Positions 11,112 to 64,000 of a stretch of 64,000 nt of DNA are shown here, piece by piece. Every line of letters starts with the position of its first letter. Positions within the stretch are counted from its first letter, which is position 1. The notes below the pieces were generated by a model. That model worked only from the letters and a program-made list of their open reading frames with translations. It was not told the DNA's origin and made no database searches. The stretch comes from an uncultured Spirochaetia bacterium (GTDB lineage: Bacteria; Spirochaetota; Brachyspiria; Brachyspirales; Brachyspiraceae), in contig CAMRBQ010000006.1 of NCBI GenBank assembly GCA_947040495.1, positions 1 through 64,000 on the forward strand, written 5' to 3'. The position numbers and the translations under genes are program-made.

Positions 11112-11195
11112 AAAAGAATAATTATTATCTAAATATATTTATATAACAAAAAAAATAAAAATATTATTATCATGCAACTAAAGCATATATATCTA

Positions 11196-49237: not shown

Positions 49238-50293
49238 ATGTACAATTCATTTACACCAAATTACAATAACCTATTAGATGCTTCATATAATAAAAAATCG
49301 CAATACTTATCACTATATGAACATAATATATCTGAAAACATAATGCAAAAAATAATGAATAAACAATTTAGTGAGCTTATAAATGGAGACTATAAAGATA
49401 AAAAAGAATATTTCAATAATCTATGTAAATTTTGGTATTCAATGGGCTATGATGCTATATCATATGAAGCATGTATTGTAGAATTTGTACAAGGTGGACA
49501 GGCTCTCTCTGGTATAAAAGATGGCATAATAAAAACACAAGAAGATTTTGATAAATATGATTTTAATGAAATAGAAAATAATTTTTTTAATAAATACACA
49601 GAACAATTTACTATATTTAGAGAATGCTTGCCAAAAAGCATGAAAATTATTGGGGGGCTTGGCAATGGAGTATTTGAAATCATCCAAGACTTCGTATCAT
49701 ATGAAAGATTATGTATGATGCGTGTTGATGACCCCATACTATATAAAAATTTATTTGAAAAAATTGGCGATATTATGTTCAATATTTGGAAAAGATTTCT
49801 TACCGAATTCCAAGACATAATAGGCCTCCCTAGATTTGGAGATGACCTCGGATACAAAACTTCAACTATGCTTATGCCCGATGATATAAGAAATCTTGTT
49901 ATACCACAATACAAAAGAGTTGTTGCTCTTATAAGAAGTTTTAATAAACCATTTATACTTCATAGCTGTGGCTCTATATTTGAAGTCATGGATGATATTA
50001 TTTCAAATGTAGATATAACAGCCAAGCATTCTAATGAAGACCAAATAGCACCAATAGAACGCTGGATAAATGATTATAATGATAGAATAGCTATATTTGG
50101 GGGAGTGGATATGGGTATGCTCTGTCAATTAGAAGAAAAGGAACTTAAAGAATATGTAAAAGATATACTTAGAAAAACTGAAAATGTTAAAAATGGATTT
50201 GCAATAGGCTCCGGCAATTCTATTCCAGACTATGTGCCTGTAGAAAATTATATAACTATGGTAGAAACTATACGCGAATATAGAAATTTTTAA
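49238..50293 (+). CDS. Uroporphyrinogen decarboxylase (URO-D) family protein
   Basis: A 351-aa TIM-barrel protein of the URO-D/MtaA superfamily, with GDDLGYKTSTMLMPDDIRNLVIPQYKRVV and the zinc-binding LHSCGS motif (HxC), then HSNEDQIAPIERWINDYNDRIAIFGGVDMG. The HxC motif, and the absence of a UroD-like N-terminal arginine signature, indicate a methyl- or methylthiol-transferring relative rather than haem synthesis. No corrinoid protein lies near. It is the last clearly chromosomal gene before the island. Confidence 0.82.
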   Translation: MYNSFTPNYNNLLDASYNKKSQYLSLYEHNISENIMQKIMNKQFSELINGDYKDKKEYFNNLCKFWYSMGYDAISYEACIVEFVQGGQALSGIKDGIIKTQEDFDKYDFNEIENNFFNKYTEQFTIFRECLPKSMKIIGGLGNGVFEIIQDFVSYERLCMMRVDDPILYKNLFEKIGDIMFNIWKRFLTEFQDIIGLPRFGDDLGYKTSTMLMPDDIRNLVIPQYKRVVALIRSFNKPFILHSCGSIFEVMDDIISNVDITAKHSNEDQIAPIERWINDYNDRIAIFGGVDMGMLCQLEEKELKEYVKDILRKTENVKNGFAIGSGNSIPDYVPVENYITMVETIREYRNF

Positions 50294-50746
50294 CTACTAT
50301 ATGGGCTTTACTTACATATTATAAATTAATTAATATTTTACGAGACACGAATTAGTCCTATTGCCAGATATGGTTTTCCTGAAGCATGCTGCCATGATGC
50401 AAATTTAGTATATCAGAACAAACACTCAGACGTCTATCCAAAGTCTTTTTTGAGTAGTTAAGTTAAATATAATTAACTTAACGCCCATGATAAAAACGCA
50501 AAAATACAATACTAAACATAGCTAGTATATTTAATTAGCTAAAAAAGTCAAGCATGAAAATAATGATGATGAAACTTGCTTGTAAAGAAAATGAAAATGC
50601 AAACTAGCATTGCGATAATAATTTTTCACAAGAGCGATGAACACTTGCTTAGCCATAATAAACAGTTGTAAATAAAAAATATCCTATACTCAAAAATAAA
50701 ATTCATATGTAATAATTGATGATGAAAATAATTGATGGAGTATAAA
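50294..50746. other. Gene-poor junction with probable gene debris
   Basis: This 450-base stretch marks the change from core to island. On the minus strand at 50338-50412 one frame reads WQHASGKPYLAIGLIRVS then stops. An adjacent frame upstream (to about 50470) reads TLDRRLSVCSDILNLHHGS, so a frameshifted remnant of an unknown gene is likely. Bases 50457-50482 form a perfect 10-bp inverted repeat (GTTAAGTTAA/TTAACTTAAC, 6-base loop). No tRNA gene or obvious attachment core was found. Confidence 0.4.
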
Positions 50747-51523
50747 ATGCCAAACAAAAAAAGAGAATGCATAATTATAGCGAATGGTTGCAGCCATAGC
50801 AAAAATAGTGGCGAGCAATTTCATATGGCATATTTATACCTGCTCGCTTATGTCGATTTGCAAAATCCAACTACAATAAAAAATCCTGATTTTCCTTCTA
50901 GCGATAGCGATGATTTTAATTCGCTACATTGGTATGTCGATACGGATAAAAATATAGAACAGTCGAGATTGCGATTTGCAAAGCATGGCATTTACAAAGT
51001 TACTATTGAAGAAAAAATATTTGATGGCAAATATGGACTTTATTTTATTGTCGATAATTCGGAAGCGATAGTTGAAAATAAAGTGCTCGCAGATTTTTTG
51101 AGCGACTATAACAAGCCCACGATTATTGAAGATGAGTTGTTGGGTACGCTTGTTGCAGAAAATGCAGGGGCTTCATTGAGTGGCAATATTATGTGGAATA
51201 ATATTGATCTAAATATTTCTCTCGATATAGAAGCCATCGATAAAATGAAAGAGTTGGTCGGCTCAAGTAAATCTTGGAATGAAAAATTTAGCACCGCCTT
51301 GAGCGAAGAGTTTTTTGAAAGTGCCAAACAATATTTTGAAGGTGGTCAAAAGTCGATGAGCAAAGAACAGTTTGCACAATATTTTATTCTTGAAAGATTA
51401 TACATCGATGAGCAAGGCGAGTTTTATGCGAGCTTTAATAGCAAAATATATTTGCCCGACCATAATCTCGAAGTCAACGGCAGTTTGGACGAGGGCATCA
51501 GCAACATATCACTCGAAGGCTAA
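50747..51523 (+). CDS. DUF2262-like protein
   Basis: A 258-aa cytosolic protein. The middle and C-terminal parts (DELLGTLVAENAGASLSGNIMWNNIDLNISLDIEAIDKM, then WNEKFSTALSEEFFESAKQYFE, FILERLYIDEQGEFYASF) have the strand pattern and wording of DUF2262 proteins, a family of unknown function often present in several copies in gut anaerobes. The ATG at 50747 is chosen because GGAG lies 7 bases upstream; the TTG/ATG at 50732 would include it. Its codon spelling (gcg, agc, gat) is like the prophage rather than the core. Confidence 0.6.
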   Translation: MPNKKRECIIIANGCSHSKNSGEQFHMAYLYLLAYVDLQNPTTIKNPDFPSSDSDDFNSLHWYVDTDKNIEQSRLRFAKHGIYKVTIEEKIFDGKYGLYFIVDNSEAIVENKVLADFLSDYNKPTIIEDELLGTLVAENAGASLSGNIMWNNIDLNISLDIEAIDKMKELVGSSKSWNEKFSTALSEEFFESAKQYFEGGQKSMSKEQFAQYFILERLYIDEQGEFYASFNSKIYLPDHNLEVNGSLDEGISNISLEG

Positions 51524-51564
51524 AATATTAATTTTTTAAAATATAAAAATATAATTTGCAAATT

Positions 51565-52248
51565 TTATATTTGGCTTTTACTTCGATTAATTAATTTCAA
51601 AAATTTATTATCGATAAAATAAATTAAATAGCCCATAAGTAAAAAGCAAAAAGCAAGCAATAACAAATTGAGAGAAATTTGAGCCATGCCATATTTATCA
51701 ATGTCAATAAAAAAATATGGATAGCGGCTGCCGTCAGAAAAAGGCTTGCCAAGAGCCCCCCTTATAATAGAAAAAATAAAATAAACAAGAGGGATTAAAA
51801 ACCATATAAGAGGGTCGCTTTTTTTGTAAACACCCTTTTTATCAAAAATTATAAAATCAATCATCGACATCATCGGCACAATATAATGAACAAGCATATT
51901 TGAAATATTGTAGCAACGATAAGGCTCGCTCATCGCAAAATTATTATTGCTAAGTACAAAATGATAAACCAAAAAAGTAATGCTAATACACATAGTCACC
52001 GCACCTTTAACTTTTGGAAACACACTAATAATATTTTTATAACTATTATTTTTGATATAGGCAAGCGAATAAATAATATTAATTATAAAATAAATGAACA
52101 CAAATAAATTACTAAGATATGTAAAATAAGCGAGCTCTTGAAAATGCGCCCCTCCCCTCGTAGCACCCATGCCGATGGCAAGACCTGTCGCAGCAAATAT
52201 TACGATGAAAGATTTGTATATAACAGAAAAAATAATATTGGCAATCAT
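51565..52248 (-). CDS. Pr6Pr-like six-helix membrane protein
   Basis: A 227-aa polytopic protein with about six hydrophobic helices and the pattern AYFTYLSNLFVFIYF, NMLVHYIVPMMSMIDFIIFDKKGVYKKSDPLIWFLIPLVYFIFSIIRG, and RYPYFFIDIDKYG. This matches the Pr6Pr/FAR-17a-like membrane family, whose function is unclear. It is convergent with the DUF2262-like gene; a nearly palindromic AT stretch around TTTGCAAA (51556-51563) between them may act as a two-way terminator. Its codon use suggests it belongs to the island. Confidence 0.7.
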   Translation of the reverse strand: MIANIIFSVIYKSFIVIFAATGLAIGMGATRGGAHFQELAYFTYLSNLFVFIYFIINIIYSLAYIKNNSYKNIISVFPKVKGAVTMCISITFLVYHFVLSNNNFAMSEPYRCYNISNMLVHYIVPMMSMIDFIIFDKKGVYKKSDPLIWFLIPLVYFIFSIIRGALGKPFSDGSRYPYFFIDIDKYGMAQISLNLLLLAFCFLLMGYLIYFIDNKFLKLINRSKSQI

Positions 52249-52510
52249 AGACTTTTTAAAACTCCAAAATAATTTTTAATATTTTTAATATTATTATCAA
52301 AAAACAAAACAATTTATACTACATTAATTTTATATAATTAGAAATATTTTTAAAAAAGCAACAATTTATAATAGATATTTTTTTTAAAAATAGTATTTTT
52401 TGATAAAATAATATTTATTAGGTTGAAATTAAAGATTAAGTATCTTTCTAACGACAATTAGTGAACTATATATAGTTTTTTCGGGGAAATAAAAATAAGG
52501 ACTATATATT

Positions 52511-53431
52511 ATGCAAAAGACATATAAACCCGACTATCAGGGTTTTCAAAATTACTACAAAAATATCAAGGCAGACTCTACAGTTGCCATTTATCAAAAA
52601 TGTTTGAAAAAGTTTTTTGATTATTATCGCCATAGCCCATGCCGTATCACAAAACAGGATTTGATAAAATATATAATATTTATCAAGACCAAAAATTATT
52701 CGGCAATATATTTGAAGGTAATAATTTTTGCATTGAAAGCATATTTCAAATATTTAAATAACATTGGAAGCAAAACATTTCTCAACATGAATATTTTTGA
52801 AGATTTACAATTGCCAAAAGTACAACATCATAAACAAAAAATTACGAGGTATAAAGAATTAAAAAAAATATTTAATTATATCGATGAGAATAGCCAAAAT
52901 GATTTTGTAAAGCTCCGTGACAAAACTATGCTCATGCTCTATGCAACAACGGGGGCTCGTCATAGTGAAATATCGGAACTCAAATTGGAAGATGTTGAAC
53001 TCGATTCTAATATAATTTATTTTTTAAAAACAAAAAATAATAAACCTCGTGTAACATATCTCAATGAAAAAACAAAAAAATATTTGAAACGATATTTAAC
53101 AATGAGGGCAAAACTTAAACATAGCAAGGCAAGCGATAGTCTTTTTATACCCTTTGTTTTTTACAATAACAAAAAAAATACCAAAAATAATATGGGCTAT
53201 TTGCTCTATTCCAAAATACGAAAGTTTATGCCAACATTTACTCTTCATAGTTTAAGGCGTGGTTGTGCGACCGATTTATATGATAATGGTGCGAGCATAT
53301 TGGGCATCAGTCAAATCCTTGGCCATTCAAACATTGCTATCACTGCCAAATATTATATACAGGCGGATTTCAAAAATGATATTTATAAGCATCCAAGTTG
53401 TACTTTACAAAGTCCGCCAAATGTTAGATAA
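52511..53431 (+). CDS. Tyrosine recombinase/phage integrase
   Basis: A 306-aa site-specific recombinase, XerC/D-sized. An N-terminal SAM-like core-binding domain (about 15-95) is followed by the catalytic domain with Arg150 (ATTGARHSEIS), His246 and Arg249 (HSLRRG), His272 (LGHSNI) and the nucleophile Tyr281 (AKYYIQ). It would integrate and excise the prophage or resolve its dimers. The 262-base upstream gap is AT-rich with an ACTATATATAGT palindrome near 52466. The ribosome-binding site is weak (ATAAGG). Confidence 0.9.
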   Translation: MQKTYKPDYQGFQNYYKNIKADSTVAIYQKCLKKFFDYYRHSPCRITKQDLIKYIIFIKTKNYSAIYLKVIIFALKAYFKYLNNIGSKTFLNMNIFEDLQLPKVQHHKQKITRYKELKKIFNYIDENSQNDFVKLRDKTMLMLYATTGARHSEISELKLEDVELDSNIIYFLKTKNNKPRVTYLNEKTKKYLKRYLTMRAKLKHSKASDSLFIPFVFYNNKKNTKNNMGYLLYSKIRKFMPTFTLHSLRRGCATDLYDNGASILGISQILGHSNIAITAKYYIQADFKNDIYKHPSCTLQSPPNVR

Positions 53432-53510
53432 ATAACAAGCCTTAAATATATAATTTTTTATAAAAGCAATATTATATTATAAAATCAAAATTAATATAAT
53501 ATTGTTTTTA

Positions 53511-53598
53511 TTATATTTTGTGCATAAATTTCATGAAAATTAGATTGTTTTTTTTTATATTTTGTGCATAAATTTCATGAAAATTAGATTGTTTTTTT
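53511..53598 (+). repeat. Two tandem 44-bp repeats upstream of the scaffold gene
   Basis: The unit TTATATTTTGTGCATAAATT...TTAGATTG plus a T-run occurs at 53511-53554 and again at 53555-53598, identical except for the T-run length (9 against 8). Each unit contains the palindrome TTTCATGAAA. They lie 60 bases before the head-gene promoter and may bind a phage regulator. Confidence 0.85.
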
Positions 53599-53658
53599 TA
53601 AAAAAAACTATATTCTTATCAGCCTAGTCATGAAATATTAACACGATTTTTTTCTTTT

Positions 53659-53694
53659 ATAACTATTGACTTTATACACAATAGTTATTATTAT
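53659..53694 (+). promoter_or_regulatory. Head-module promoter overlapped by a perfect inverted repeat
   Basis: ATAACTATTG (53659-53668) and CAATAGTTAT (53679-53688) are exact 10-bp inverted repeats around a 10-base centre. TTGACT (53666-53671) and TATTAT (53689-53694), 17 bases apart, form a sigma-70-like promoter whose -35 is inside the left arm. A repressor dimer bound here would block the promoter, which drives the scaffold gene at 53731. Confidence 0.6.
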
Positions 53695-53730
53695 ACTATA
53701 TATAAATACATTACATCATAAGGAGATGAT

Positions 53731-54417
53731 ATGCTTGAAATATTAAAAAACTTTTTTGATTCTGAAGTCGACAAAACATTTGAAAACTTTGAAAACTTTT
53801 GTCATGACAATAAAATTAGACTTGCCGATTTATCGAGCGGTCAATATATTAGCAAAGAAAATCTTGAAAATCAAATACTATTATTGAGAGAAGCGGGCAC
53901 TAATAATAGAAAGGCCAGTAATGAGTTGATAGAAAAAATGAATATACTAAAGCAAGATTTGAATAAAGAACAATTAGAGCAAGCTATGATTGAAATAAAT
54001 ATTGCCAAAGATAATTTCAAAAATGTGAAAGAAGATTTTGAACAAAAATATAATTTCAAATATAAAGAAAATGACCAACAATATTTAGAAGAGCAAGATG
54101 AAGTCAAAGAGCAACTTCTCAAACAAGCCATTAGTGATGCGGGCATAAATGTTAAATTTGCTAATCCATATTTGCTAATCCATAAATTATTCAATAATTT
54201 GTCCATTGATAAACATGGCAATTTACAGGGCATAGATGAGCTCATTTCTGTTTTGAAAAAGAACAAGGAAACTATGATTTCATTTTTGAAGAGCATTGAT
54301 TCTAACATGGATAATTTTGCTCTCAATATTAGTGGCATCAGTGGTGGTACGACAAAAGCTATGGAATTAAAAAGTGCTAGTGAGCAAGCCAAAAAAGACC
54401 TCCAAGGTTTTTCATAG
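53731..54417 (+). CDS. Phage capsid scaffolding protein (GP20-like)
   Basis: A 228-aa, highly charged protein with a long predicted coiled coil (about 45-130, Glu/Lys/Gln/Asn heptads) and a C-terminal region ending ASEQAKKDLQGFS. Directly preceding the major capsid gene, and rich in Glu and Lys, it fits the scaffold/minor structural GP20 class, which fills the procapsid and is removed on DNA entry. The ribosome-binding site AAGGAGATG is strong. The assignment is mainly by position and composition. Confidence 0.65.
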   Translation: MLEILKNFFDSEVDKTFENFENFCHDNKIRLADLSSGQYISKENLENQILLLREAGTNNRKASNELIEKMNILKQDLNKEQLEQAMIEINIAKDNFKNVKEDFEQKYNFKYKENDQQYLEEQDEVKEQLLKQAISDAGINVKFANPYLLIHKLFNNLSIDKHGNLQGIDELISVLKKNKETMISFLKSIDSNMDNFALNISGISGGTTKAMELKSASEQAKKDLQGFS

Positions 54418-54752
54418 GCCTGGCATACGCTTTAGTTGCGGATTTCAAAAATCATATTTTTTCTAATTACATATTTAAAAATCAATATTCATATAACAAA
54501 AAAAAATATTTCTACATTTCAAAAATCAATATAACAATACATTTTCACACTGTTATAATACACCATATAATGGAAGAAAAAAACAAATAATTCAATTATT
54601 ATAATGCTTTCAATTATGTCACAAAAGAAATCATGCAACAGCAAGTCTACAATTAAAATATCTACATCAAAATATTTTCACATTTCAAAATTTATATAAC
54701 AAATATAATAAATAAAAATTAATATCATAAGTCAAATAACAGGAGAACAATT
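54418..54752 (+). repeat. Repeat-containing gap between scaffold and capsid genes
   Basis: There is no ORF in this 335-base gap. Bases 54421-54441 (TGGCATACGCTTTAGTTGCG) are an inverted, diverged copy of the arm of the palindromic elements found later in the tail module. Four degenerate copies of ATTTCAAAAATCAATATAACA follow (near 54442, 54476, 54515 and 54681). A TATAAT at about 54554-54559 could be a -10 box. AGGAG at 54741-54745 serves the capsid gene. Confidence 0.6.
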
Positions 54753-55739
54753 ATGTCATTAACAACAAGCGAATATTCAACAGTCTTAAGAGGCGAAGGT
54801 CAAGAGGTCATGGAACGCGAACCGCTCACAGCAATGCTCGGCAATCCAACTATGATTTCTCGTGACAACGAAAGCATTGCCAATTACAAAGAAATAAAAA
54901 AATATGTGATGGACTATTCCAAAATTGGACTGCTCGATTATGATGGCGAATATCCCGAGGGCAGCCTAACGGGTCAATGGGAAACTCATATGCTAGAATA
55001 TGACAGGGCATTAAAATTTAGTTTTGACAAAATCGATTCACGTTTTGGCTCGCCATATAGCGGAGTGTCGGTGGGTTCGATTATGGGCAACATTCAAAGA
55101 AATAAAGTTATACCAGAAGTCGATGCTACAAATATCGAAAGATGTTTTAATGTTATCGAAACTACAAAATTAAAGCCATCACCAACATCTGTAAATATTT
55201 TGAGTGAAATAGAAAAAGCAATAAATGAAATATGTGAGCTTGGTCTTGATGAAAGCAACCTACAATTATTTATGAATTATGAAACAAGGCAAATGCTTAT
55301 CGAATGTATCGGCACAAAAAATGCTCAATATATTGCGGACTTAAATTTTGTTGCCCATAATGGCGTTTCATATACATTGCCTAGTATCAACGGGGTCGCA
55401 ATTCAAGTGATGCCAAAAAATAGATTCTATACTAAGATAAAAAGATTTGTAAAATCTGATTATATTAGCAACCCTCTTAACAATGGTTATGCCAAGGCAG
55501 ATGATGGCAAAGATATCGCATGGATGATAGTTCCAAAAAATTATGCGACACCTGTAAGTATATTGACTGATCTCAAAATAAAACTTGATAATGTTGAGAA
55601 TACAAAAAACAGAAATAATGAAGCTGCTTATAATATCGTTTTTGATTGTATTATAGAAAAGAATGTTCCAAAGATAGCAGATTTATTTAAGGCTGCTGTT
55701 ATGCCTCCTGCTGCTTCAAAGACTGCTAGTAAAAGTTAA
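54753..55739 (+). CDS. Phage major capsid protein
   Basis: A 328-aa protein consistent with an HK97-fold capsid subunit. It has an N-terminal arm, a spine-helix region (about 140-170), DESNLQLFMNYETRQMLIECIGTKNAQYIADLNF, and a domain with VSYTLPSINGVAIQVMPKNRF near two thirds of the length. Late segments DGKDIAWMIVPKNYATPVSIL and FDCIIEKNVPKIADLFKA match phage capsid proteins that encode an integral axial domain. It follows a scaffold-like gene, has AGGAG upstream, and is the expected size (about 36 kDa). Confidence 0.75.
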   Translation: MSLTTSEYSTVLRGEGQEVMEREPLTAMLGNPTMISRDNESIANYKEIKKYVMDYSKIGLLDYDGEYPEGSLTGQWETHMLEYDRALKFSFDKIDSRFGSPYSGVSVGSIMGNIQRNKVIPEVDATNIERCFNVIETTKLKPSPTSVNILSEIEKAINEICELGLDESNLQLFMNYETRQMLIECIGTKNAQYIADLNFVAHNGVSYTLPSINGVAIQVMPKNRFYTKIKRFVKSDYISNPLNNGYAKADDGKDIAWMIVPKNYATPVSILTDLKIKLDNVENTKNRNNEAAYNIVFDCIIEKNVPKIADLFKAAVMPPAASKTASKS

Positions 55740-55740
55740 T

Positions 55741-55840
55741 TATTAGAGAACATAGTTATTTATTAAAGAACAACATTAATTATTAAAGAACATCAATATC
55801 TATTACAAAATAACATTCATTATTAGAGAACAATAGGGGT
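55741..55840 (+). repeat. Five 20-bp tandem repeats after the capsid gene
   Basis: Bases 55741-55840 divide exactly into five 20-base units beginning TATTAGAGAACA, TATTAAAGAACA, TATTAAAGAACA, TATTACAAAATA and TATTAGAGAACA, with variable last eight bases. The fifth unit contains AGGGGT, the ribosome-binding site of the next gene. No spacers are present, so it is not a CRISPR array. The constant phase suggests protein binding along the helix or repeated RNA structures. Confidence 0.9.
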
Positions 55841-55845
55841 AAAAA

Positions 55846-56247
55846 ATGCCAGTAGATAAATCAATTGTAGAGCAAGAGCAATCACAAATTATATTAGAGT
55901 ATTGCGAGTTCAAAAATATTTATCCACAAAGTAGATTAAGCGAGGGCGAATATGCTTTGATGTATTATGAGACTTTGCTTAATTTCAAAAATTATATTGT
56001 TTATAGCAGCAAAGAAATTTTGGCTATGGGCGAAGTTTTACAAGAGTTACGTTGGATACTTGCAAAGCAGATATTCCATGTCGAAAACCATGGCATTGAA
56101 GTTGTTGGCGATGCTATTGTTTCTCAAAATGCAAATGGTATTTCGATGACTGTCAATAATAATAAAATTTATGGCAGTTATAATTGGAATGATGTTGTGC
56201 TACAATGGCTCAAGACTTCCTCTTTGCAAATAAAATTAAAAATATAA
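55846..56247 (+). CDS. Phage head-tail connector-like protein (position-based)
   Basis: A 133-aa protein. It starts with an acidic helical part, LEYCEFKNIYPQSRLSEGEYALMYYETLLNFKNYIVY. A second helical part, ILAMGEVLQELRWILAKQIF, is followed by a beta-rich end. Being right after the capsid gene and of connector size, it may be a head-completion or connector protein. No family motif is clear. Confidence 0.45.
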   Translation: MPVDKSIVEQEQSQIILEYCEFKNIYPQSRLSEGEYALMYYETLLNFKNYIVYSSKEILAMGEVLQELRWILAKQIFHVENHGIEVVGDAIVSQNANGISMTVNNNKIYGSYNWNDVVLQWLKTSSLQIKLKI

Positions 56248-56292
56248 AATATTTATAACTTATCTAATATTAAAATATGCAATAGGAAAAAA

Positions 56293-56847
56293 ATGTATAA
56301 TATACCTAACAAATTAATTTGTAATAATCATATTACATTTTTCGCAAGACATGCAAATGCAAACGAAAATGATAGCGAGTATATACAAAATTATAAAAAT
56401 ATTTTGCTGCCAACATATATTGAAAATGTGTCGCTACAAATTAAAAATAATAATAATGCTTCTATCATATCGAGAAATAGTTGTGCGAGTTTTAGTCTCT
56501 TGTTGTCGCTTGAAAATAACATCACAAAAATATATCGCAACATCGATGGCAAAAAATATTATTTACAATATATCGATTATAGCAAATATAAATCTCTCGA
56601 CTATGAGAGCCAGCAAAAATTATATTTTACAATTAGAAAAAATTATTTTTTTATTAGCCCGATGATTAGCGACTTGCCAATGCCTTTGACAGATGAAGAG
56701 TTTAATATCAATATCAAAAATAAAAATTGTTGTGAATATAAAAAATATAATATCGATGATTTCAAATATTCTTATGCGGCCAATAATAATTCTAATCATA
56801 GGCATTTATGTTTGCTAACTTGTACGGGTGTGAGCAGTAGTAATTAA
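56293..56847 (+). CDS. Phage head/tail-junction protein of unknown function
   Basis: A 184-aa protein rich in Asn, Tyr and Lys, apparently beta-rich, with no recognised motif. The start has AGGA 6 bases upstream (AATAGGAAAAAA). It lies between the connector-like and the tail-tube genes, so a stopper, minor capsid or tail-terminator role is expected from position only. Confidence 0.45.
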   Translation: MYNIPNKLICNNHITFFARHANANENDSEYIQNYKNILLPTYIENVSLQIKNNNNASIISRNSCASFSLLLSLENNITKIYRNIDGKKYYLQYIDYSKYKSLDYESQQKLYFTIRKNYFFISPMISDLPMPLTDEEFNINIKNKNCCEYKKYNIDDFKYSYAANNNSNHRHLCLLTCTGVSSSN

Positions 56848-56898
56848 TTTTATACAATTGAAAAAATGAAACGGCAAATAAGCCGAGGAGAATAAAAT

Positions 56899-57405
56899 AT
56901 GAACAATCTTATGAGAGAACAATTTCGAGTATATATGAAATGTGCCGATCAAAAATATCATGTGATTGGCAAGAATGCAAGTGAGGGGACGCTAAGTTTT
57001 GGTACGACAAGCGAGAGCAAAAATTCTATCACCAATGAGCTTGCCAAAAGTGTTGCAAAAAAAGGGGCTTGGAGTTTACCGATTTCGACAATCGTTGATG
57101 CTGATGACCCGACCATGAGCGAATTATTGAAAGACACTCTTGACATGAATATTTCTCGTGAATATGAAATTTTGATGACATGGGAATTTATGCATAAAGA
57201 TAGTGATGTCAATTTTATCAAGACGCATATGTTTAAGGCTGTTGTTCCACTTTCAGAAATTGGTGGTTCTGGGCAAGCAGAGCTTAACACAAGTTTTACA
57301 ATTTCAAATAGTGGCGATATCAAAGTGGGTTATGTCGATGTGAGCGAGGCTACTGGCATTTATGATGCGAGCACTGATACCTATTTTTTTCCTAGTACTA
57401 CATAA
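56899..57405 (+). CDS. Phage major tail tube protein
   Basis: A 168-aa protein with the beta-sandwich wording of siphoviral tail tubes: KNASEGTLSFGTTSESKNSITNELAKSVAKKGAWSLPISTIVDADDP, then MTWEFMHKDSDVNFIKTHMFKAVVPLSEIGGSGQAELNTSFTISNSGDIKVGYVDV. Such proteins stack as hexamers to form the tube. Immediately upstream of the tape measure, with GAGGAG as ribosome-binding site, the position agrees with the call. Confidence 0.7.
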   Translation: MNNLMREQFRVYMKCADQKYHVIGKNASEGTLSFGTTSESKNSITNELAKSVAKKGAWSLPISTIVDADDPTMSELLKDTLDMNISREYEILMTWEFMHKDSDVNFIKTHMFKAVVPLSEIGGSGQAELNTSFTISNSGDIKVGYVDVSEATGIYDASTDTYFFPSTT

Positions 57406-57416
57406 ATTTAAGTTCT

Positions 57417-57435
57417 ATATATTAAATGCATTAAT
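57417..57435 (+). repeat. Fragment of the palindromic intergenic element
   Basis: ATATATTAAATGCATTAAT, 19 bases, is identical to 58808-58826, 59881-59899 (one mismatch) and, reversed, 63641-63659. Here only this core is present, in the gap before the tape-measure gene. The ribosome-binding site GAGG follows at 57482. Confidence 0.75.
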
Positions 57436-57489
57436 AATAATTAAATATATAAAATTAAAGTATATGCAGACTCTAGGTAATGAGGAAAA

Positions 57490-58785
57490 ATGGAAAAGCA
57501 AAATATAGCAATAACAATTGACACCGCACAATTTGACAAGAGCATAAAAGAAATAGATAAAAAAATTATTGAGCTCACCAAAAGTCGAAAAATCATCATT
57601 GCCAAACCCAAAACAAAAGAGACTGAAGATGCGGTCAAAAAAATTGAAAGCCGATTAACTCAACTGTCCAATCAAAAAATTGAAATTGAAACTAACATCG
57701 CAGAAATTGCAAATGAAGGGACACTCGCATTAGACAGCCTCGCAAATAAAAATACAACAACAACAAAAATATTTTCAGAGCAATGGAAAAAATCAACCGA
57801 TGAAACTCAACAAATATTTGATAGTTTTTTGCAACAAGCAGGCGACCTCGGAGATGCGATTGTCAATGCACAGAACAATAAAATTGATGGCCAACTTCAA
57901 TCGACAGAAAGTGCATATAAAACAGAAATAGAATTACTAGAAAAAAAATATGAACAGGAGCAAGAGTCTTATAAAAATCATTTGGAAAATATTGATGAGC
58001 AACGTGCTGAGCATGAAGAAAAGTTAAACGAGGCTAACATTGAACGTGAGGAACTTGAAGCCGAAAAAGAAACTATCATGGTCGAAGATGATTATCTCGC
58101 TTTACAAGAAAAAATAAAAAATAAAGAAAATGAAATCGCAGCACAAGAAGCACTCATCAATCAAATTAATGAAGTCGAAAAAAACACATTGCTTTCCAAA
58201 GAAATTTCTGAGAAAGAATATCAAGCTCGAAAGGAAGAACGTGAGCATCAATATTTAATTAAAAAAGCGGAGCTCGAACGCAAGCAAGCTATCGCAAATA
58301 AAGGTATGCAAATATTTAATGCTTCGATGAATATGGCATCTGCGATTATGGGCGTGACTGCGGGTAGTAGTTTGCTGCCTTGGATGATACCCATACAAAT
58401 TGCCATGGTGTCTGCCATTGGGGTGGCTCAAATTGCGGCTATTATGAATGCGCCACTTCCAGAGATTCCGAGTTTTGCTATGGGGGGCATGGTGCCTCGT
58501 GCAAATAATTATTTGTACCCGGGCATTCCGCAAGCAAAAGATGAGCGTGATAAAACTTTGATTTGGGCTCGGCAGGGCGAGATGGTTTTGACGCCTACTC
58601 AAGCTTTGGGCTATCGTGATTTTCAAATGTGGCAAAATCAAAGCAGCATCAATAATATGACCACTAGTAATAATTTGAATAATAGCAGTGTCAATAATAA
58701 TTATGAAATTGCTCTCAACATTGCTAGTAATAAATCGAACCCTCATGAAATTGCCAAGGCTGTTGTAAAGGCTATTGGTCATTAA
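57490..58785 (+). CDS. Short phage tail tape measure protein
   Basis: A 431-aa protein with a long coiled coil rich in Lys, Glu and Gln (about 1-280). A hydrophobic/Met-Ala-rich segment follows (NMASAIMGVTAGSSLLPWMIPIQIAMVSAIGVAQIAAIM), then the C-terminal block PEIPSFAMGGMVPR and GEMVLTPTQA that is characteristic of tape measure proteins. It is very short for a tape measure; at the usual ratio of tail length to residues it would specify a tail of only about 65 nm. The ribosome-binding site is GAGGAAAA. Confidence 0.82.
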   Translation: MEKQNIAITIDTAQFDKSIKEIDKKIIELTKSRKIIIAKPKTKETEDAVKKIESRLTQLSNQKIEIETNIAEIANEGTLALDSLANKNTTTTKIFSEQWKKSTDETQQIFDSFLQQAGDLGDAIVNAQNNKIDGQLQSTESAYKTEIELLEKKYEQEQESYKNHLENIDEQRAEHEEKLNEANIEREELEAEKETIMVEDDYLALQEKIKNKENEIAAQEALINQINEVEKNTLLSKEISEKEYQARKEEREHQYLIKKAELERKQAIANKGMQIFNASMNMASAIMGVTAGSSLLPWMIPIQIAMVSAIGVAQIAAIMNAPLPEIPSFAMGGMVPRANNYLYPGIPQAKDERDKTLIWARQGEMVLTPTQALGYRDFQMWQNQSSINNMTTSNNLNNSSVNNNYEIALNIASNKSNPHEIAKAVVKAIGH

Positions 58786-58788
58786 GTG

Positions 58789-58941
58789 CTACGTACGCTT
58801 AAGGTGCATATATTAAATGCATTAATGACATGCTAATATATTAGAATATTATATAAATATTTGAATGTGCGACTAAAGCCTACGCAGTAGTGCAACTAAA
58901 GCCTACGCAGTAGTGCAACTAGGAAAAAATGTACAAACAGG
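58789..58941 (+). repeat. Palindromic intergenic element, copy A (before dit)
   Basis: The left arm CTACGTACGCTTAAGGTGC (58789-58807) is an imperfect inverted partner of the right arm ACTAAAGCCTACGCAGT (58872-58888). Between them lie ATATATTAAATGCATTAAT and the perfect palindrome CTAATATATTAG. The 23-base right arm is then repeated in tandem (58895-58917) and is followed by a leader with GTACAAACAGG. A near-identical copy is at 59861-59992. Confidence 0.85.
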
Positions 58942-58966
58942 AAAAGTAGTGCAAACAGGGAGAAAT

Positions 58967-59857
58967 ATGAGAGATGTTTTAAATAACTTAAACCCAAACC
59001 TCCAAATAAGTGAACTCTTTTTTATTTTAAAAAAAGATGATGACACAATATTAAAACTCGGTGGTGAAAAATATCCGATAGTCAAAAGCAATAAATTATT
59101 TAATAGCCTATTTACATTTGAAAACCTCGATAATAGCCGCGACATTCCCATTGAAGTTTATATTAATAGCATTAGCGATGTCGATGAGTTCACCAATTTT
59201 TTTGAGGCGACAAAGTATAATCAAACATATACATATAAAATGGACATTCATTGTAATGGCAAAAAATATAATGCCAATATTATCACCGCAGAACGCCCGC
59301 TCGAAATTACAAACATCGAAGATTTATACGGCACGCTCACGCAACCCTCGGCAACGATGAAAATCGAACTCATCATGGAGAGCCCGTATTTTTATAGCGA
59401 CTACAGTTATGATGTTGCGATTGGTGGGGGCACTGAGCCTTTGATGAAATATCCTTTGCCATGGCGTTGGGGCGATACTAGTGGATTTGCTGTTTCAAAT
59501 GCACAGGCGATTATCCCGCATATTGTTGAAAATTATGGCAATGAAAATAATGGAATTATTATAAATATTCATAGTGGCAAAAATTTGAAAAACCCTCGCG
59601 TCATCAATGAGAGCACTGGTTTCATCATGGGCTTTGATATGACTGCGAACGCCAATGATATTATCGAAATAAATACTATCGAAAAAACTGTTTATAAAAA
59701 TGGAAAATTTATGCCCAATGTGAAGAGGCTTTTTGACAAGTGGCTTATGCTCACCGATGGGCTCAATGTGATTGCTTTTAATGCCGACAGTGGTGCTCAA
59801 TCATGTAAAGTCAATTTGAAATTTTACAACAAGTATCGAGTACTAAGCATACTCTAG
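58967..59857 (+). CDS. Distal tail protein (Dit-like)
   Basis: A 296-aa protein of the phage tail family: the N-terminal domain includes RDIPIEVYINSISDVDEFTNFFEATKYN, and the C-terminal galectin-like domain has IIPHIVENYGNENNGIIINIHSGKNLKNPRVINESTGFIM, the typical Dit pattern. Dit forms the hub at the tail tip connecting tube and tail fibres. I start at the ATG at 58967 with GGGAG upstream; an in-frame GTG at 58913 lies within the repeat element. The tape-measure gene precedes it and the Gp37-like gene follows. Confidence 0.78.
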   Translation: MRDVLNNLNPNLQISELFFILKKDDDTILKLGGEKYPIVKSNKLFNSLFTFENLDNSRDIPIEVYINSISDVDEFTNFFEATKYNQTYTYKMDIHCNGKKYNANIITAERPLEITNIEDLYGTLTQPSATMKIELIMESPYFYSDYSYDVAIGGGTEPLMKYPLPWRWGDTSGFAVSNAQAIIPHIVENYGNENNGIIINIHSGKNLKNPRVINESTGFIMGFDMTANANDIIEINTIEKTVYKNGKFMPNVKRLFDKWLMLTDGLNVIAFNADSGAQSCKVNLKFYNKYRVLSIL

Positions 59858-59860
59858 GGT

Positions 59861-59992
59861 ACTGTGCACACTTTAATTACATATATTAAATGCATTGATA
59901 ACATGCTAATATATTAGAATATTATATAAATATTTGAATGTGCAACTAAAGCCTACGCAGTAGTGCAACTAGGAAAAAATGTACAAACAGGA
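59861..59992 (+). repeat. Palindromic intergenic element, copy B (before Gp37-like gene)
   Basis: The left arm is ACTGTGCACACTTTAATTAC (59861-59880) and the right arm GCAACTAAAGCCTACGCAGT (59942-59961), with the same two-palindrome core as copy A between them. The following leader (AACTAGGAAAAAATGTACAA) is also shared. It matches copy A over more than 100 bases but has only one copy of the right arm. Confidence 0.85.
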
Positions 59993-59997
59993 GAAGA

Positions 59998-61125
59998 ATG
60001 GTAGAGAAACCAATAATTTATATACTCGATGAAAAATTAAATGTCATAGCAAACATAAATGATTTTATCAAAATGACTTGGATTGAAAACTTCTTTGAAG
60101 CAGATAGTTTTGACATGGAGATACATTTTGATATTACAAGCAATGTCAAAAATAAATCTTATGAAAAAAATAAAATGATATTTGAAGCCCTCGACAGCAT
60201 GTATCAAAATAATATATTTAAGCCTCGATTTGTTGTGGCAGATTTTTTCCAAAAAGATAAAATAAGAATCGCCATGATTGATAGTTTTCATATTAATGAA
60301 ACAAATGCCAGCATGGAAATAAATGCTCTTGGCATGCTCTCTATTTTTCAATTTAAATATGCTTATAATAAAGAGTATATTCCGAGTGCAAACAGCAATG
60401 ATAATATTGGTATAGTCGCTTGTCGCATTTTGGCTGATGGCTTTGCAGCTGATAACATTTTGAAAAATATTTTTATAGCCGATGAGAGTAGCAATAAAAT
60501 TGGTCATGAAGTTTTTTATAAGACAGAGGATAGCCAAAATATTTATGAGGCAACAACGGCATTGCTTTGTGCTTTTAATATTGGATTTGAAACTATATAT
60601 AATCATGATGAAAAAAAAATATATTTTAATACTATTGATAGCAGCGGTAAAATTATTGATACTGCCATAAGTACTGATGATGAAAATCTTATGGAAAATA
60701 AATATACATTTGAGTTTTCAGAATATAGAAATTATATATTTATCGAAGGCGAGAATGGCATCAATGAAGTGATTAACAAAAGCGATGGTAGCATAATATT
60801 TTCTATCAAAGCAAAAAGCAAATCGAAACAGGGCAACCTAAGCAATGATGCATATAGGCAAATCTTAAAAACAGAGGCTGCCATTGAACTCGACAAAAAT
60901 AGCACGTCAGAGCATTTCGATATTTCAATTCATGATGATGTAGATGTGGCTCTTGGCGATACTTGTGTGGTGAAAATATTTGTGGGCTACAAAGAAATTG
61001 TGAAGCAAATTTTAATTACGTCTATAGAGCATGAGTTTGAAGATAAAAAATATAATCGTAATATTGGATTTGGTAAACCCTATAATGCCAAAAACCAATT
61101 AAAAAAAATCTTAGGAGTTTTATAA
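59998..61125 (+). CDS. Phage tail protein, ReqiPepy6 Gp37-like
   Basis: A 375-aa tail-tip protein. It starts with IYILDEKLNVIANINDFIKMTWIENFFEADSFDMEI, the opening of Gp37-like siphoviral proteins (a lead tip strand followed by an FxLE-like strand). The middle reads YEATTALLCAFNIGFETIYNHDEKKIYF, and the end VALGDTCVVKIFVGYKEIVKQILITSIEHEFED. It is expected at the tail hub. The ribosome-binding site AGGAGAAG is within the shared leader of copy B. Confidence 0.7.
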   Translation: MVEKPIIYILDEKLNVIANINDFIKMTWIENFFEADSFDMEIHFDITSNVKNKSYEKNKMIFEALDSMYQNNIFKPRFVVADFFQKDKIRIAMIDSFHINETNASMEINALGMLSIFQFKYAYNKEYIPSANSNDNIGIVACRILADGFAADNILKNIFIADESSNKIGHEVFYKTEDSQNIYEATTALLCAFNIGFETIYNHDEKKIYFNTIDSSGKIIDTAISTDDENLMENKYTFEFSEYRNYIFIEGENGINEVINKSDGSIIFSIKAKSKSKQGNLSNDAYRQILKTEAAIELDKNSTSEHFDISIHDDVDVALGDTCVVKIFVGYKEIVKQILITSIEHEFEDKKYNRNIGFGKPYNAKNQLKKILGVL

Positions 61126-61126
61126 A

Positions 61127-62311
61127 ATGAAAGTCAATGGCAAAGAACCAGATATTGGGATGAGATATTTAAACAGCGTAAGTAGCATGATTGTCCATGG
61201 ATTAGTTAATGAGCAAATTGTCGAGCAATATTTTGAAGTCAATACCGAAATAATTTTAACTATCGATTATGAAGAAACTATAGGTCTTGTCAAAAGTTAT
61301 AATTCGATGCTGAGCCAAAATAATCAAATAATTGCTGTACCTATTAATAGCGATGTTACAAGAGTGAGCGATAGTTTTCGAGGGCATACAATTTTTACCG
61401 AAAATAATAATTTAGATATTTTGTATGATGCCTCTGATATTCAAGAGCATACTTATCTTACAAATGCTGATGGCTTTAACAGTGTCAGTGAACATGATAT
61501 TACTGTGACGGGCAAGATGGTGATGACGCTACTTCCTCAAAGTGGGATTATCGATGGGCTCACTTTTTCGATGTCGCAGCCGCAAAATGTTGCTTTTGAA
61601 GTTGGTGAAGATGGCATGCGAAGAGATTTAATCTTGCTTCGTAAGGACCAGCACAGCCGTAGCATTAGTATTGTTCTCAGACGGGGCATACCTGCCATGC
61701 GACCTGAGCTACCGCCTTATGAGCAAAATCATTTTGGTATATATGAGCTGCCGATATTTTCGGTTTTTATTGATTTAGGTTTTGACCCTGTAAAGCGAAT
61801 ACATGTTTTAGATTTGCGTCGTAATCTTGGCAAGGAAAATTATACCACACAAAATAACCTTTGCGGTTGTATCATGGCATTCTCTGGTGGTGCGGAAGAG
61901 TATTTGCCACCCAATAGTATGGTTTGTGATGGGCGTGCTATTAATCGTATTACTTATGGAAATCTATATAGTAAATTTAGTACATTATGGGGGGAAGGTG
62001 ATGGCTCAACGACTTTTAATATTCCAAATCTAAGTAACCGTATTATTCAAGGTGGCAGGATTTCTCATTCTAATAGAAATAATCAAAATGACGAGGCTGC
62101 TCAAAATAATCAAAATGACGAGGCTGCTCAAGATACTCAAACTTATGTGCCTGCTCAAAATAATCAAACTTATGTGCCTGCTCAAGATACTCAAACTTAT
62201 GTGCCTGCTCAAAATAATCAAAATGACGAGGCTGCTCAAGATACTCAAACTTATAATCCCGCTCAAAAAAGTTTTCAGAGTTCTATTCTTGAATGGATAA
62301 TTTTTTATTAA
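61127..62311 (+). CDS. Tail fibre/tip protein with collar domain and C-terminal repeat
   Basis: A 394-aa receptor-binding candidate. The first 220 residues are beta-rich and unrecognised. Next comes a phage tail collar domain (about 245-310: GCIMAFSGG, PPNSMVCDGRAINRITYGNLYSKFSTLWGEGDGSTTFNIPNLSNRIIQGG). The protein ends with seven 9-residue repeats (NNQNDEAAQ, DTQTYVPAQ types) and a hydrophobic end, SILEWIIFY. It overlaps nothing and begins 1 base after the Gp37-like stop. The repeat tail can lengthen or shorten by recombination without changing frame. Confidence 0.78.
   Translation: MKVNGKEPDIGMRYLNSVSSMIVHGLVNEQIVEQYFEVNTEIILTIDYEETIGLVKSYNSMLSQNNQIIAVPINSDVTRVSDSFRGHTIFTENNNLDILYDASDIQEHTYLTNADGFNSVSEHDITVTGKMVMTLLPQSGIIDGLTFSMSQPQNVAFEVGEDGMRRDLILLRKDQHSRSISIVLRRGIPAMRPELPPYEQNHFGIYELPIFSVFIDLGFDPVKRIHVLDLRRNLGKENYTTQNNLCGCIMAFSGGAEEYLPPNSMVCDGRAINRITYGNLYSKFSTLWGEGDGSTTFNIPNLSNRIIQGGRISHSNRNNQNDEAAQNNQNDEAAQDTQTYVPAQNNQTYVPAQDTQTYVPAQNNQNDEAAQDTQTYNPAQKSFQSSILEWIIFY
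62078..62266 (+). repeat. Seven-unit 27-bp coding tandem repeat (tail fibre)
   Basis: Seven in-frame 27-base units. Each begins AATAAT or GATACT followed by CAA, then either AATGACGAGGCTGCTCAA or ACTTATGTGCCTGCTCAA (AATCCC variant in the last). The half-units combine freely: N-E, N-E, D-P, N-P, D-P, N-E, D-N/P. The near identity of DNA, not just protein, points to recent expansion. Confidence 0.95.
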
Positions 62312-62317
62312 GTTTTC

Positions 62318-63571
62318 ATGGATTTATTTAGCATCAAACAAAAAAGCATCATAAAAAATGCGAACCAACGCTATAATATTTTAAGCGGGGCTACTCGTAG
62401 TGGCAAAACTTATATCGACATCAGTTTTCGGATTATCGATAGGCTGCTCTCACTCAAAAATAAAAATGGGATTGCCATCATTTGTGGATTTAGTTATAGC
62501 ACAATCGAACGAAATATTATTATCCCCATGCAGCAAAAATATGGTGGCCTTGTTGGCAATATTGAATCTGGCAATAATAAAATAAAATCTACTCATGTGA
62601 ATATCATGGGCGAAAATTTTATTTTATTTAATGCGAGTGACAAGAGTAGAATTGATAGCATCCGTGGTAGCAGTGTCAAATATGCATATTGCGATGAGGT
62701 GGCTTCTTATGATAGCAATTTTTTTGCCATGCTCAAAAGTAGGCTCGACAAAACTTATAGCATTTGCGATTGTACTTGTAATCCACATTCGCCAAATCAT
62801 TGGTTTAAACAATTTATGGATAGCGAAAATATTGATAAATATGTAGAGCATTTTTGCCTCGATGACAATCCTTTTATCTCTGAAACTTTTAAAAAAAATA
62901 TCAAAGCCGAATATGAAAACACCATTTTTTATGACCGCTATATTTTGGGCAAATGGGTAAACGCAGAGGGCTTGGTTTTTACAAACTTTGCTAATGACAA
63001 AAATCGCTGGCTTATAAATTATAATAATAAAAATCATTATCGCCGAATTAATATTGGTGTCGACTTTGGTGGCAACAAATCGAAAACTATGTTTATCGCA
63101 ACTGGGCTTTTTTATAATAATCAAAATCAAAATTATGAGGCACATATTCTCGAAGAACATCATGTACATGCGACGAGTAGTAGCGGTGTCGATTGCCAAA
63201 AAATTGCTGGCGAGCATTTTGAGTTTTTTAATATGATAGCAAAAAAATATAATACTGTGCCCGTTCAAACTTACTGCGACCATGAGATAAACTCGATTAA
63301 TACTATTCGCAATTTTCATCGAACAAATGGCAGCAAGCATTTTGTAGACAAAGCCGACAAGCATAGCATGAGCCTCAATGATTGGATTATGTTTCTCAAC
63401 TCATTATTTAATTTTGACAGGATAAAAATTAGCAGCCATTGTAATATGCTCATCGATAGTTTGGCCACACTTATGTATGACATCAATAAGCCCGATTGTA
63501 TTTTGGATAATAATTGTACTGATGTTGATTCCTATGATGCGCTTAGGTACGGACTAGTCAAGATTTTTTAG
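62318..63571 (+). CDS. Phage terminase large subunit
   Basis: A 417-aa packaging motor of the terminase_3/PBSX type: Walker A GATRSGKT (24-31), Walker B YAYCDEV (about 120-127), CTCNPHSPNHWFKQF (coupling motif region), and the RNase H-like nuclease starting INIGVDFGG (Asp near 248) with later acidic residues. The gene starts 6 bases after the tail fibre stop. A small terminase was not seen. The 246-aa minus-strand frame inside it is a shadow. Confidence 0.9.
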   Translation: MDLFSIKQKSIIKNANQRYNILSGATRSGKTYIDISFRIIDRLLSLKNKNGIAIICGFSYSTIERNIIIPMQQKYGGLVGNIESGNNKIKSTHVNIMGENFILFNASDKSRIDSIRGSSVKYAYCDEVASYDSNFFAMLKSRLDKTYSICDCTCNPHSPNHWFKQFMDSENIDKYVEHFCLDDNPFISETFKKNIKAEYENTIFYDRYILGKWVNAEGLVFTNFANDKNRWLINYNNKNHYRRINIGVDFGGNKSKTMFIATGLFYNNQNQNYEAHILEEHHVHATSSSGVDCQKIAGEHFEFFNMIAKKYNTVPVQTYCDHEINSINTIRNFHRTNGSKHFVDKADKHSMSLNDWIMFLNSLFNFDRIKISSHCNMLIDSLATLMYDINKPDCILDNNCTDVDSYDALRYGLVKIF

Positions 63572-63589
63572 TTTTATGTTTTGCCTGAT

Positions 63590-63680
63590 AGATTAATAAC
63601 ATGCTAATATATTAGAATGTTAGATTGATATTTGCATTTTATTAATGCATTTAATATATACAACTTAAACGTACATAGTA
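63590..63680 (+). repeat. Palindromic intergenic element, copy D (before portal)
   Basis: Here the element is rearranged: AACATGCTAATATATTAG (63598-63615) is in forward orientation, but the ATATATTAAATGCATTAAT core is reversed (63641-63659). The right arm is CAACTTAAACGTACATAGTA (63661-63680), matching the GCAACTAAAGCC arm of the other copies. AGGAGAAA follows for the portal gene. Confidence 0.8.
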
Positions 63681-63695
63681 CCAAATAGGAGAAAT

Positions 63696-64000
63696 ATGAA
63701 TATCACAAATAAAGCAATTGAGTTTCTAAGCAAAAATAATATCACAGTTTACAAAGAGCATATCCCCTTTGTCAATGAGTACCGTGCATTTTTTAATATG
63801 AACGATGACAGCTATACGAAGGAGCAAGTTTTTGTGAACCGTGCGGGTGATGAGCGTATCCATAAAGAGATGGCTCAAAAAGTTCGCTACATCACAAATA
63901 TTCATCTGAGCCCTTGTAAGGAATTTGCAAAATTGCTCTTCAATGAAAAAGTGGATTTTAAAAGCGATGATGAAATAACAAATCAAATTAATATATTGCG
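63696..64000 (+). CDS. Phage portal protein, N-terminal part (cut by window end)
   Basis: An open frame from ATG 63696 (AGGAGAAAT upstream) continues without a stop to base 64000: 101 complete residues. MAQKVRYITNIHLSPCKEFAKLLFNEKVDF is like the SPP1-type portal/minor capsid family, where a Lys/Arg-rich helix is followed by 'A-K-LLFNE-V'. Its place directly after the terminase supports a portal, the dodecameric DNA gate of the head. Confidence 0.7.
   Translation, partial: MNITNKAIEFLSKNNITVYKEHIPFVNEYRAFFNMNDDSYTKEQVFVNRAGDERIHKEMAQKVRYITNIHLSPCKEFAKLLFNEKVDFKSDDEITNQINIL

Follow-up and report, generated by a model that had tools for sequence, protein, structure and literature searches.

A lineage-specific family of hairpin-tipped, probably mobile repeats in a spirochaete genome and its resident prophage

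Introduction

Palindromic elements recur between the genes of a phage head, tail and packaging module (major head protein, Dit, minor tail, collar, terminase) in the window, i.e., the whole stretch of 64,000 nucleotides of spirochaete DNA that was analyzed. The locus raises the question whether such elements belong to the phage, serve as RNA signals, or are mobile repeats that entered the module from elsewhere. The reading favored here, at a probability of about 0.6, is that they are members of a lineage-specific, REPIN- or MITE-like mobile repeat with hairpin ends, which acts at the DNA level, occurs in the prophage too and has a RadC-like gene as its resident or partner.

The repeats in the phage module

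An earlier note on this DNA described three palindromic copies, at 58789-58941, 59861-59992 and 63590-63680. They are confirmed, together with the words that they were said to share. Scored with a 38-nt covariance model of a single arm, the features of the window are the following:

58785..58891, no strand: copy A from tip to tip (39.5 and 43.2 bits with the arm model; word positions)
58785-58822: left arm of copy A, tip hairpin GTGC-TAC-GTAC
58833-58844: center of copy A, CTAATATATTAG
58854-58891: right arm of copy A, tip hairpin CTAC-TGC-GTAG
58892..58914, minus strand: tandem extra right tip of copy A, a 23-bp duplication (direct repeat; arm model 25.9 bits at 58892-58913)
58914..58942, plus strand, also 59964-59992: 29-bp flank TGCAACTAGGAAAAAATGTACAAACAGGA common to copies A and B (exact match)
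59858..59964, no strand: copy B from tip to tip (15.9 and 47.6 bits with the arm model), with a degenerate left arm (59858-59895), center (59906-59917) and right arm (59927-59964)
63590..63682, minus strand: copy C, inverted (arm model 41.0 bits; inverted repeats), with its center at 63604-63615 and a sole intact arm at 63645-63682 (tip hairpin GTAC-TAT-GTAC), the other arm being lost
57394..57431, plus strand: degenerate single arm that overlaps with the stop codon ending the gene 56899-57405 (15.9 bits with the arm model; window E 0.02)
50293..50330, plus strand: further single arm, beginning at the last stop-codon base of the ORF at 49238-50293 (arm model 26.5 bits, E 6e-6)
54421..54445, plus strand: fragment proposed in the earlier note, just past the stop at 54417 (inverted repeat; resembles the box of the arm only)
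11159..11193, minus strand: weak match that may be an arm, away from the phage module (18.4 bits with the arm model; window E 0.003)

The center CTAATATATTAG has three exact occurrences (58833, 59906 and 63604), where base composition predicts 0.04. The word ATATATTAAATGCATT is found at 57417, 58808 and 59881 and, inverted, at 63644, and GCAACTAAAGCCTACGCAGT at 58892 and 59942. Of the two fragments that had been claimed besides the copies, the one at 57417 corresponds to the weak arm listed above, whereas the one at 54421 was missed by the arm model: it is absent among 34 matches in the window at E up to 10, and its membership is unsupported. Copies A and B are 97% identical across 92 bp (BLAST). 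That the copies precede ribosome-binding sites, as had been stated, holds true, the 29-bp flank itself containing an AGGA ribosome-binding motif; a sharper regularity is that the tips abut the stop codon of the preceding gene. An additional element (C6:66287-66444) lies 2.3 kb beyond the window.

The module has other repeats and peculiarities of its own. About seven 27-bp direct repeats at 62079-62268, in the tail collar/fibre-like gene 61127-62311, give a 9-aa protein repeat. Three 20-bp direct repeats of the TTAATTATTAAAGAACA type (55736-55815) lie between the major head gene and the one that follows, and a tandem pair of 44-bp repeats that are 98% alike (53505-53592) is located upstream of a scaffold-like gene. 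The gene order of the module (54753-63700) is unusual, as head and tail genes lead and the terminase large subunit follows after the tail collar gene.

Architecture of the arms and pairing of the tip hairpins

Each arm has the same architecture. From the outside inward, it consists of a tip hairpin, G-Y, the box TTAAGTTGCAC and then ATTATAATGCATT or ATTATAAAGCTAT, often followed by CTAACATTTAAATATATTT. The commonest tips are CTAC-TGC-GTAG or GTAC-TRC-GTAC; rarer ones are GACATGCATGTC, GACAC-GCG-GTGTC, CAC-TGGCT-GTG, CCACCGCGGTGG and GACAG-GGCTTT-CTGTC, and tips of a second type, TTTTTCCTAGTTGCAC, lack a hairpin. At one contig end of the host genome (L099:13-91, contig C29), three arm tips are arranged in tandem with a 21-bp period, comparable to the tandem tip at 58892-58914 in the window.

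The sequence of the tip hairpin varies while its pairing is retained, as illustrated by a covariation of 0.576 versus 0.170 in shuffled sequences. In total, 92% of the hairpin cells are paired and there are 37 double changes versus 11 in shuffles, slid controls being far lower. Since the alignment first used had been picked with the hairpin in mind, the test was redone on 134 tip-blind arms, picked solely by the 24 nt inside the tip; this selector has a background of 1 match per 152 kb of control loci and 0 in 50 kb of the window. At least three of the four pairs are kept in 87 of these 134 arms (44 expected), in 37 arms outside the training set (18 expected) and in 20 arms with non-canonical tips (11 expected).

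The two ends of an element are distinct. In 22 complete elements, the left tip resembles its own right tip less than tips of different elements resemble each other (0.455 versus 0.534, permutation 0.9995). For the boxes and inner arms, similarity within an element does not exceed that between elements. Each end keeps its own hairpin, although a C-G to G-C switch breaks the pairing between the ends, and co-variation sought between the two long arms of an element was absent. The compensatory changes that the earlier note had named as proof of a hairpin in the arms are therefore present in the tip hairpins but absent between the long arms. Because the ends differ in tip and yet each retains its own pairing, this pattern fits hairpins that are used singly rather than as one long RNA stem.

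Distribution of the family

The family extends throughout the host genome, whose assembly comprises 165 contigs and is 96.6% complete. With the arm model, approximately 120-135 arm copies were found on 48 contigs (at E up to 1 there are 144 matches; 135 of them entered the analysis, and 119 score at least 20 bits), and 26 inverted arm pairs were read out among the 135 arms. Independently of the model, a BLAST search with copy A against the window's own genome gave 37 matches on many contigs, and 39 sites in this genome match the tip sequence with three mismatches or fewer, versus 0 for a reversed-pattern control. The view of a phage element is hence not borne out: the phage carries members of a host-genome family.

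Outside this genome, copy A yielded at most one chance-level match in each of 24 genomes of the same family, and the exact arm patterns were unmatched in public genome and viral contig collections. The covariance search over spirochaete genomes that had been suggested recovered the host-genome copies, whereas 40 relatives and 296 genomes of the phylum gave isolated single weak matches only. Because of these weak or missing matches, the arm family seems to be confined to the host genome or its genus, as far as the compared genomes show. Single arm-like matches with E of about 1e-5 to 3e-5 occur in two Brachyspira-size genomes (G008 C1:1169557-1169594 and G009 C1:1675304-1675341) and in another genome of the phylum (G251 C65:26111-26148), and may be due to chance or to a distant relative of the family.

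Placement at stop codons

Arms are placed at gene ends with great precision. Depending on the score cut-off, 60-64 tips face the 3′ end of a gene, versus 33 arms facing a 5′ end. Of 60 tips facing a gene 3′ end, 27 are located within 2 nt of the stop codon, versus 3 expected under uniform placement in the same gaps (5000 simulations, maximum 10). In six cases, the TAG inside the tip is the stop codon of the gene, which results in a C-terminus of TTA* or similar. The C-terminus of PurA is SVGADRKETFTTA in the host genome and SVGAAREATITCATDLF in the sister genus, a difference consistent with insertion of an element into the final codons, which would have made the present end of the protein. One locus of the host genome (L127:1866-5721, contig C3) encodes two similar secreted proteins of 491 aa, with a family arm exactly at each stop codon. 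As REPs have been reported downstream of genes, where they often supply a TAG stop codon (PMC3733652), the placement is best regarded as REP-like behavior and not as proof of an RNA function.

The RadC-like gene within longer units

Longer members of the family, of approximately 0.8-0.9 kb, hold a gene between the arms that encodes a RadC-like JAB protein with an Rpn-like tail. The host genome (2.5 Mb) has about 23 RadC-like JAB genes (e.g., L050:1246-1941 on the minus and L048:1408-2100 on the plus strand, among loci L042-L065) in addition to one ordinary RadC. In Brachyspira-size relatives, a single RadC and a single fragment were matched per genome, compared with 5 to 8 matches in the sister genus. 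Of the 119 arms scoring at least 20 bits, 29 are located within 700 bp of a RadC domain (1.9 expected). Conversely, 13 of 24 RadC domains have an arm nearby, about half of the RadC-like genes being without one.

The gene is held in a fixed register with the arm. At seven loci (contigs C1, C7, C23, C37, C58, C85 and C111), 4-5 nt separate its stop codon from the inner end of the 3′ arm, and at C64 this distance is 1 nt. Distances from inner arm ends to other genes scatter, the fixed register being unique to the RadC-like gene. The flank tga-TAGATAGCTTTATAATGTGCAACT recurs, with changes, 3′ of RadC-like proteins that are just 30-45% identical, so that the 3′ arm has persisted through deep divergence. 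C37:6525-7416 is a complete unit of 892 bp with both of its arms, inverted arms flank the gene on both sides at C7, C23 and C64, and several contigs terminate within RadC-like genes, as near-identical repeats would cause. Other genes situated between inverted arms, i.e., PadR with a membrane protein (C47) and a lipoprotein (C61), were set aside as cargo because the adjoining arms are separate solo elements or lack a fixed register.

The RadC-like proteins consist of a RadC JAB domain joined to a C-terminal tail with a match to that of the Rpn family (TIGR01784, E down to 9e-11); this match falls below the family cut-off and concerns the tail only, the N-terminal domain being RadC/JAB. The HxH motif is lost in several paralogues. 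In mobile anti-phage genes of the Rpn family, the tail is reported to be a variable domain with an antitoxin role (PMC10327210). PADLOC gave marginal tail matches of the RadC-like proteins to one family only. They possibly form a new Rpn-like toxin/defense or mobile-gene family. Paralogues in the sister genus were checked and none has arms beside it. Two RadC-like proteins from two genera, at L060 (host genome, contig C144) and L114 (G001 contig C110), have an identical N-terminal sequence, MPKEIKDMPREIKILLPTTKIKESVKCENTKQAYKIFRE, which would reflect either recent transfer or contamination of one assembly.

A Y1/RAYT transposase (PF01797) was unmatched in the host genome, while it was matched in 5 of 14 control genomes. 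No transposase was found, the direct searches being those for Y1_Tnp and for the Rpn nuclease; the latter gave one broken copy and one weak match in the host genome, on contigs without arms. The paired tips listed show no shared flank that would represent a target-site duplication, and a terminase-based search for related phages with empty sites found none in the viral contigs or relatives compared.

Comparison with known repeat systems

The likeness of the palindromes to REP elements is a point that the earlier note had not made. REP and REPIN sequences associated with RAYT (TnpA-REP) are likewise small, dispersed intergenic hairpins that occur as inverted pairs (PMC3116915, PMC3733652), and both kinds favor the 3′ ends of genes, to which they supply stop codons (PMC3733652). 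In contrast to REP systems, which have a RAYT gene, the present family has the RadC-like gene instead. Moreover, the foot of the REP hairpin has an unpaired GTAG/CGTC tag, whereas GTAG is here inside the paired tip, where it is replaced elsewhere by GTAC, TGTC, GTG and others, and the arms are about 40 nt long with the conserved TTAAGTTGCAC box. On our analysis, the lack of RAYT and of the tag places the family outside REP/REPIN proper, while the statement that it works like them stands.

The Correia, ERIC and RUP MITEs are also palindromic intergenic elements of about 100 bp with inverted-repeat ends and longer, gene-bearing relatives (PMC2229807). Like MITEs, the short elements here are without a gene and have terminal inverted repeats, with ends that share the box and differ in tip. 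Target duplication was not seen, and a transposase-bearing parent was not found in the fragmented assembly with the direct searches for Y1_Tnp and the Rpn nuclease. Unlike in these MITEs, the tip sequence varies with pairing kept, and the two ends differ. In 'TIRtrons', i.e., tyrosine transposase units flanked by TIRs, a single gene similarly lies between self-complementary inverted repeats, and these repeats also form a family of solo copies (PMC3733652), but their gene encodes an HUH transposase rather than a RadC/JAB protein with an Rpn-like tail. Finally, the Rpn (recombination-promoting nuclease) family shares the TIGR01784-matching tail and the multicopy single-gene units (PMC10327210). 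Here, however, the RadC JAB domain replaces the PD-(D/E)XK nuclease domain, and the genes are bounded by hairpin-tipped repeats.

Alternative explanations

The best rival, although an unlikely one, is that the repeats are RNA elements selected at gene ends, as barriers at transcript 3′ ends, processing sites or terminators, which would explain why they abut stop codons. Both the tips at stop codons (27/60) and the excess of arms facing gene 3′ ends (64 versus 33) agree with this explanation, as do the paired tips and the near-perfect palindromes formed by certain copies elsewhere in the genome (z -8.0). The copies in the window, however, fold weakly as RNA (z -1.7 and -0.8), partnerless single arms are common, an Rfam scan of window positions 50000-64000 gave zero matches, and inspection of the copies read revealed no T-run after the distal tip, so that they do not resemble an intrinsic terminator or a described structured RNA. 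Because of this weak folding and the lack of co-variation between the two long arms, the RNA-processing or termination role that the earlier note had considered is disfavored.

It is less probable still that the elements are ordinary MITEs, i.e., internal-deletion derivatives of a DDE-type insertion sequence with the same inverted repeats that are mobilized in trans, with the RadC-like gene as a mere passenger. Inverted-repeat ends, intergenic spread and gene-less short forms beside longer ones all agree with this explanation, and a repeated insertion sequence could hide in an assembly of 165 contigs. Yet a fixed distance to the inner arm ends is held by the RadC-like gene alone, target duplication was not seen, and variable but paired tips with unlike ends are atypical of DDE inverted repeats. 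That a single intergenic gap was just duplicated locally in the phage is extremely improbable: one of copies A and B was probably copied from the other, given the 92 bp and the 29-bp flank that they share, but the 120-135 arms elsewhere in the genome refute duplication as the full explanation, and copy C and the element beyond the window differ in arms and orientation. The earlier note had linked such a duplication to a lack of copies elsewhere and of compensatory changes, and the genome-wide copies and the compensatory changes in the tip hairpins are the opposite of this. The same two results support its option of a MITE- or REP-like interspersed repeat.

Proposed mechanism and implications

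According to the preferred reading, that of a mobile hairpin-ended repeat, the family would consist of non-autonomous elements, each with two unlike hairpin-tipped ends that face each other, and would work like REPIN or MITE elements. We infer from the sequence that the elements have moved; they would have spread through the host genome and into the resident prophage, where the phage may tolerate them because they are sited between a stop codon and a ribosome-binding site. The short palindromes would be the gene-less form of the members of 0.8-0.9 kb, which hold the RadC-like gene between the same arms. A mobilizing enzyme may read the tip hairpin as single-stranded DNA, and the RadC-like protein could take part in movement or could be an addictive or defensive passenger. 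Against the preferred reading argue that no transposase was found with the direct searches for Y1_Tnp and the Rpn nuclease, that RadC/JAB is not a known recombinase fold, that several paralogues have lost the HxH motif, that the sister-genus paralogues are without arms and that about half of the RadC-like genes have no arm close by.

A more far-reaching proposal, which is doubtful at present, is that the longer members represent a new IS-like unit, consisting of a RadC-type JAB protein with an Rpn-like tail and without a known transposase, or else a mobile toxin or antiphage cassette with REP-like ends. If the former is true, inverted hairpin-tipped arms would spread both a gene and its gene-less derivatives at gene ends. 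REP-like palindromes are usually attributed to RAYT transposases, and the RadC/JAB gene described here is a concrete candidate for an alternative partner. This would also hint at a role for RadC-like proteins, which are widespread yet poorly understood. For the phage, the copies in the window indicate that host repeats can enter a structural module at stop codons and leave its genes intact.
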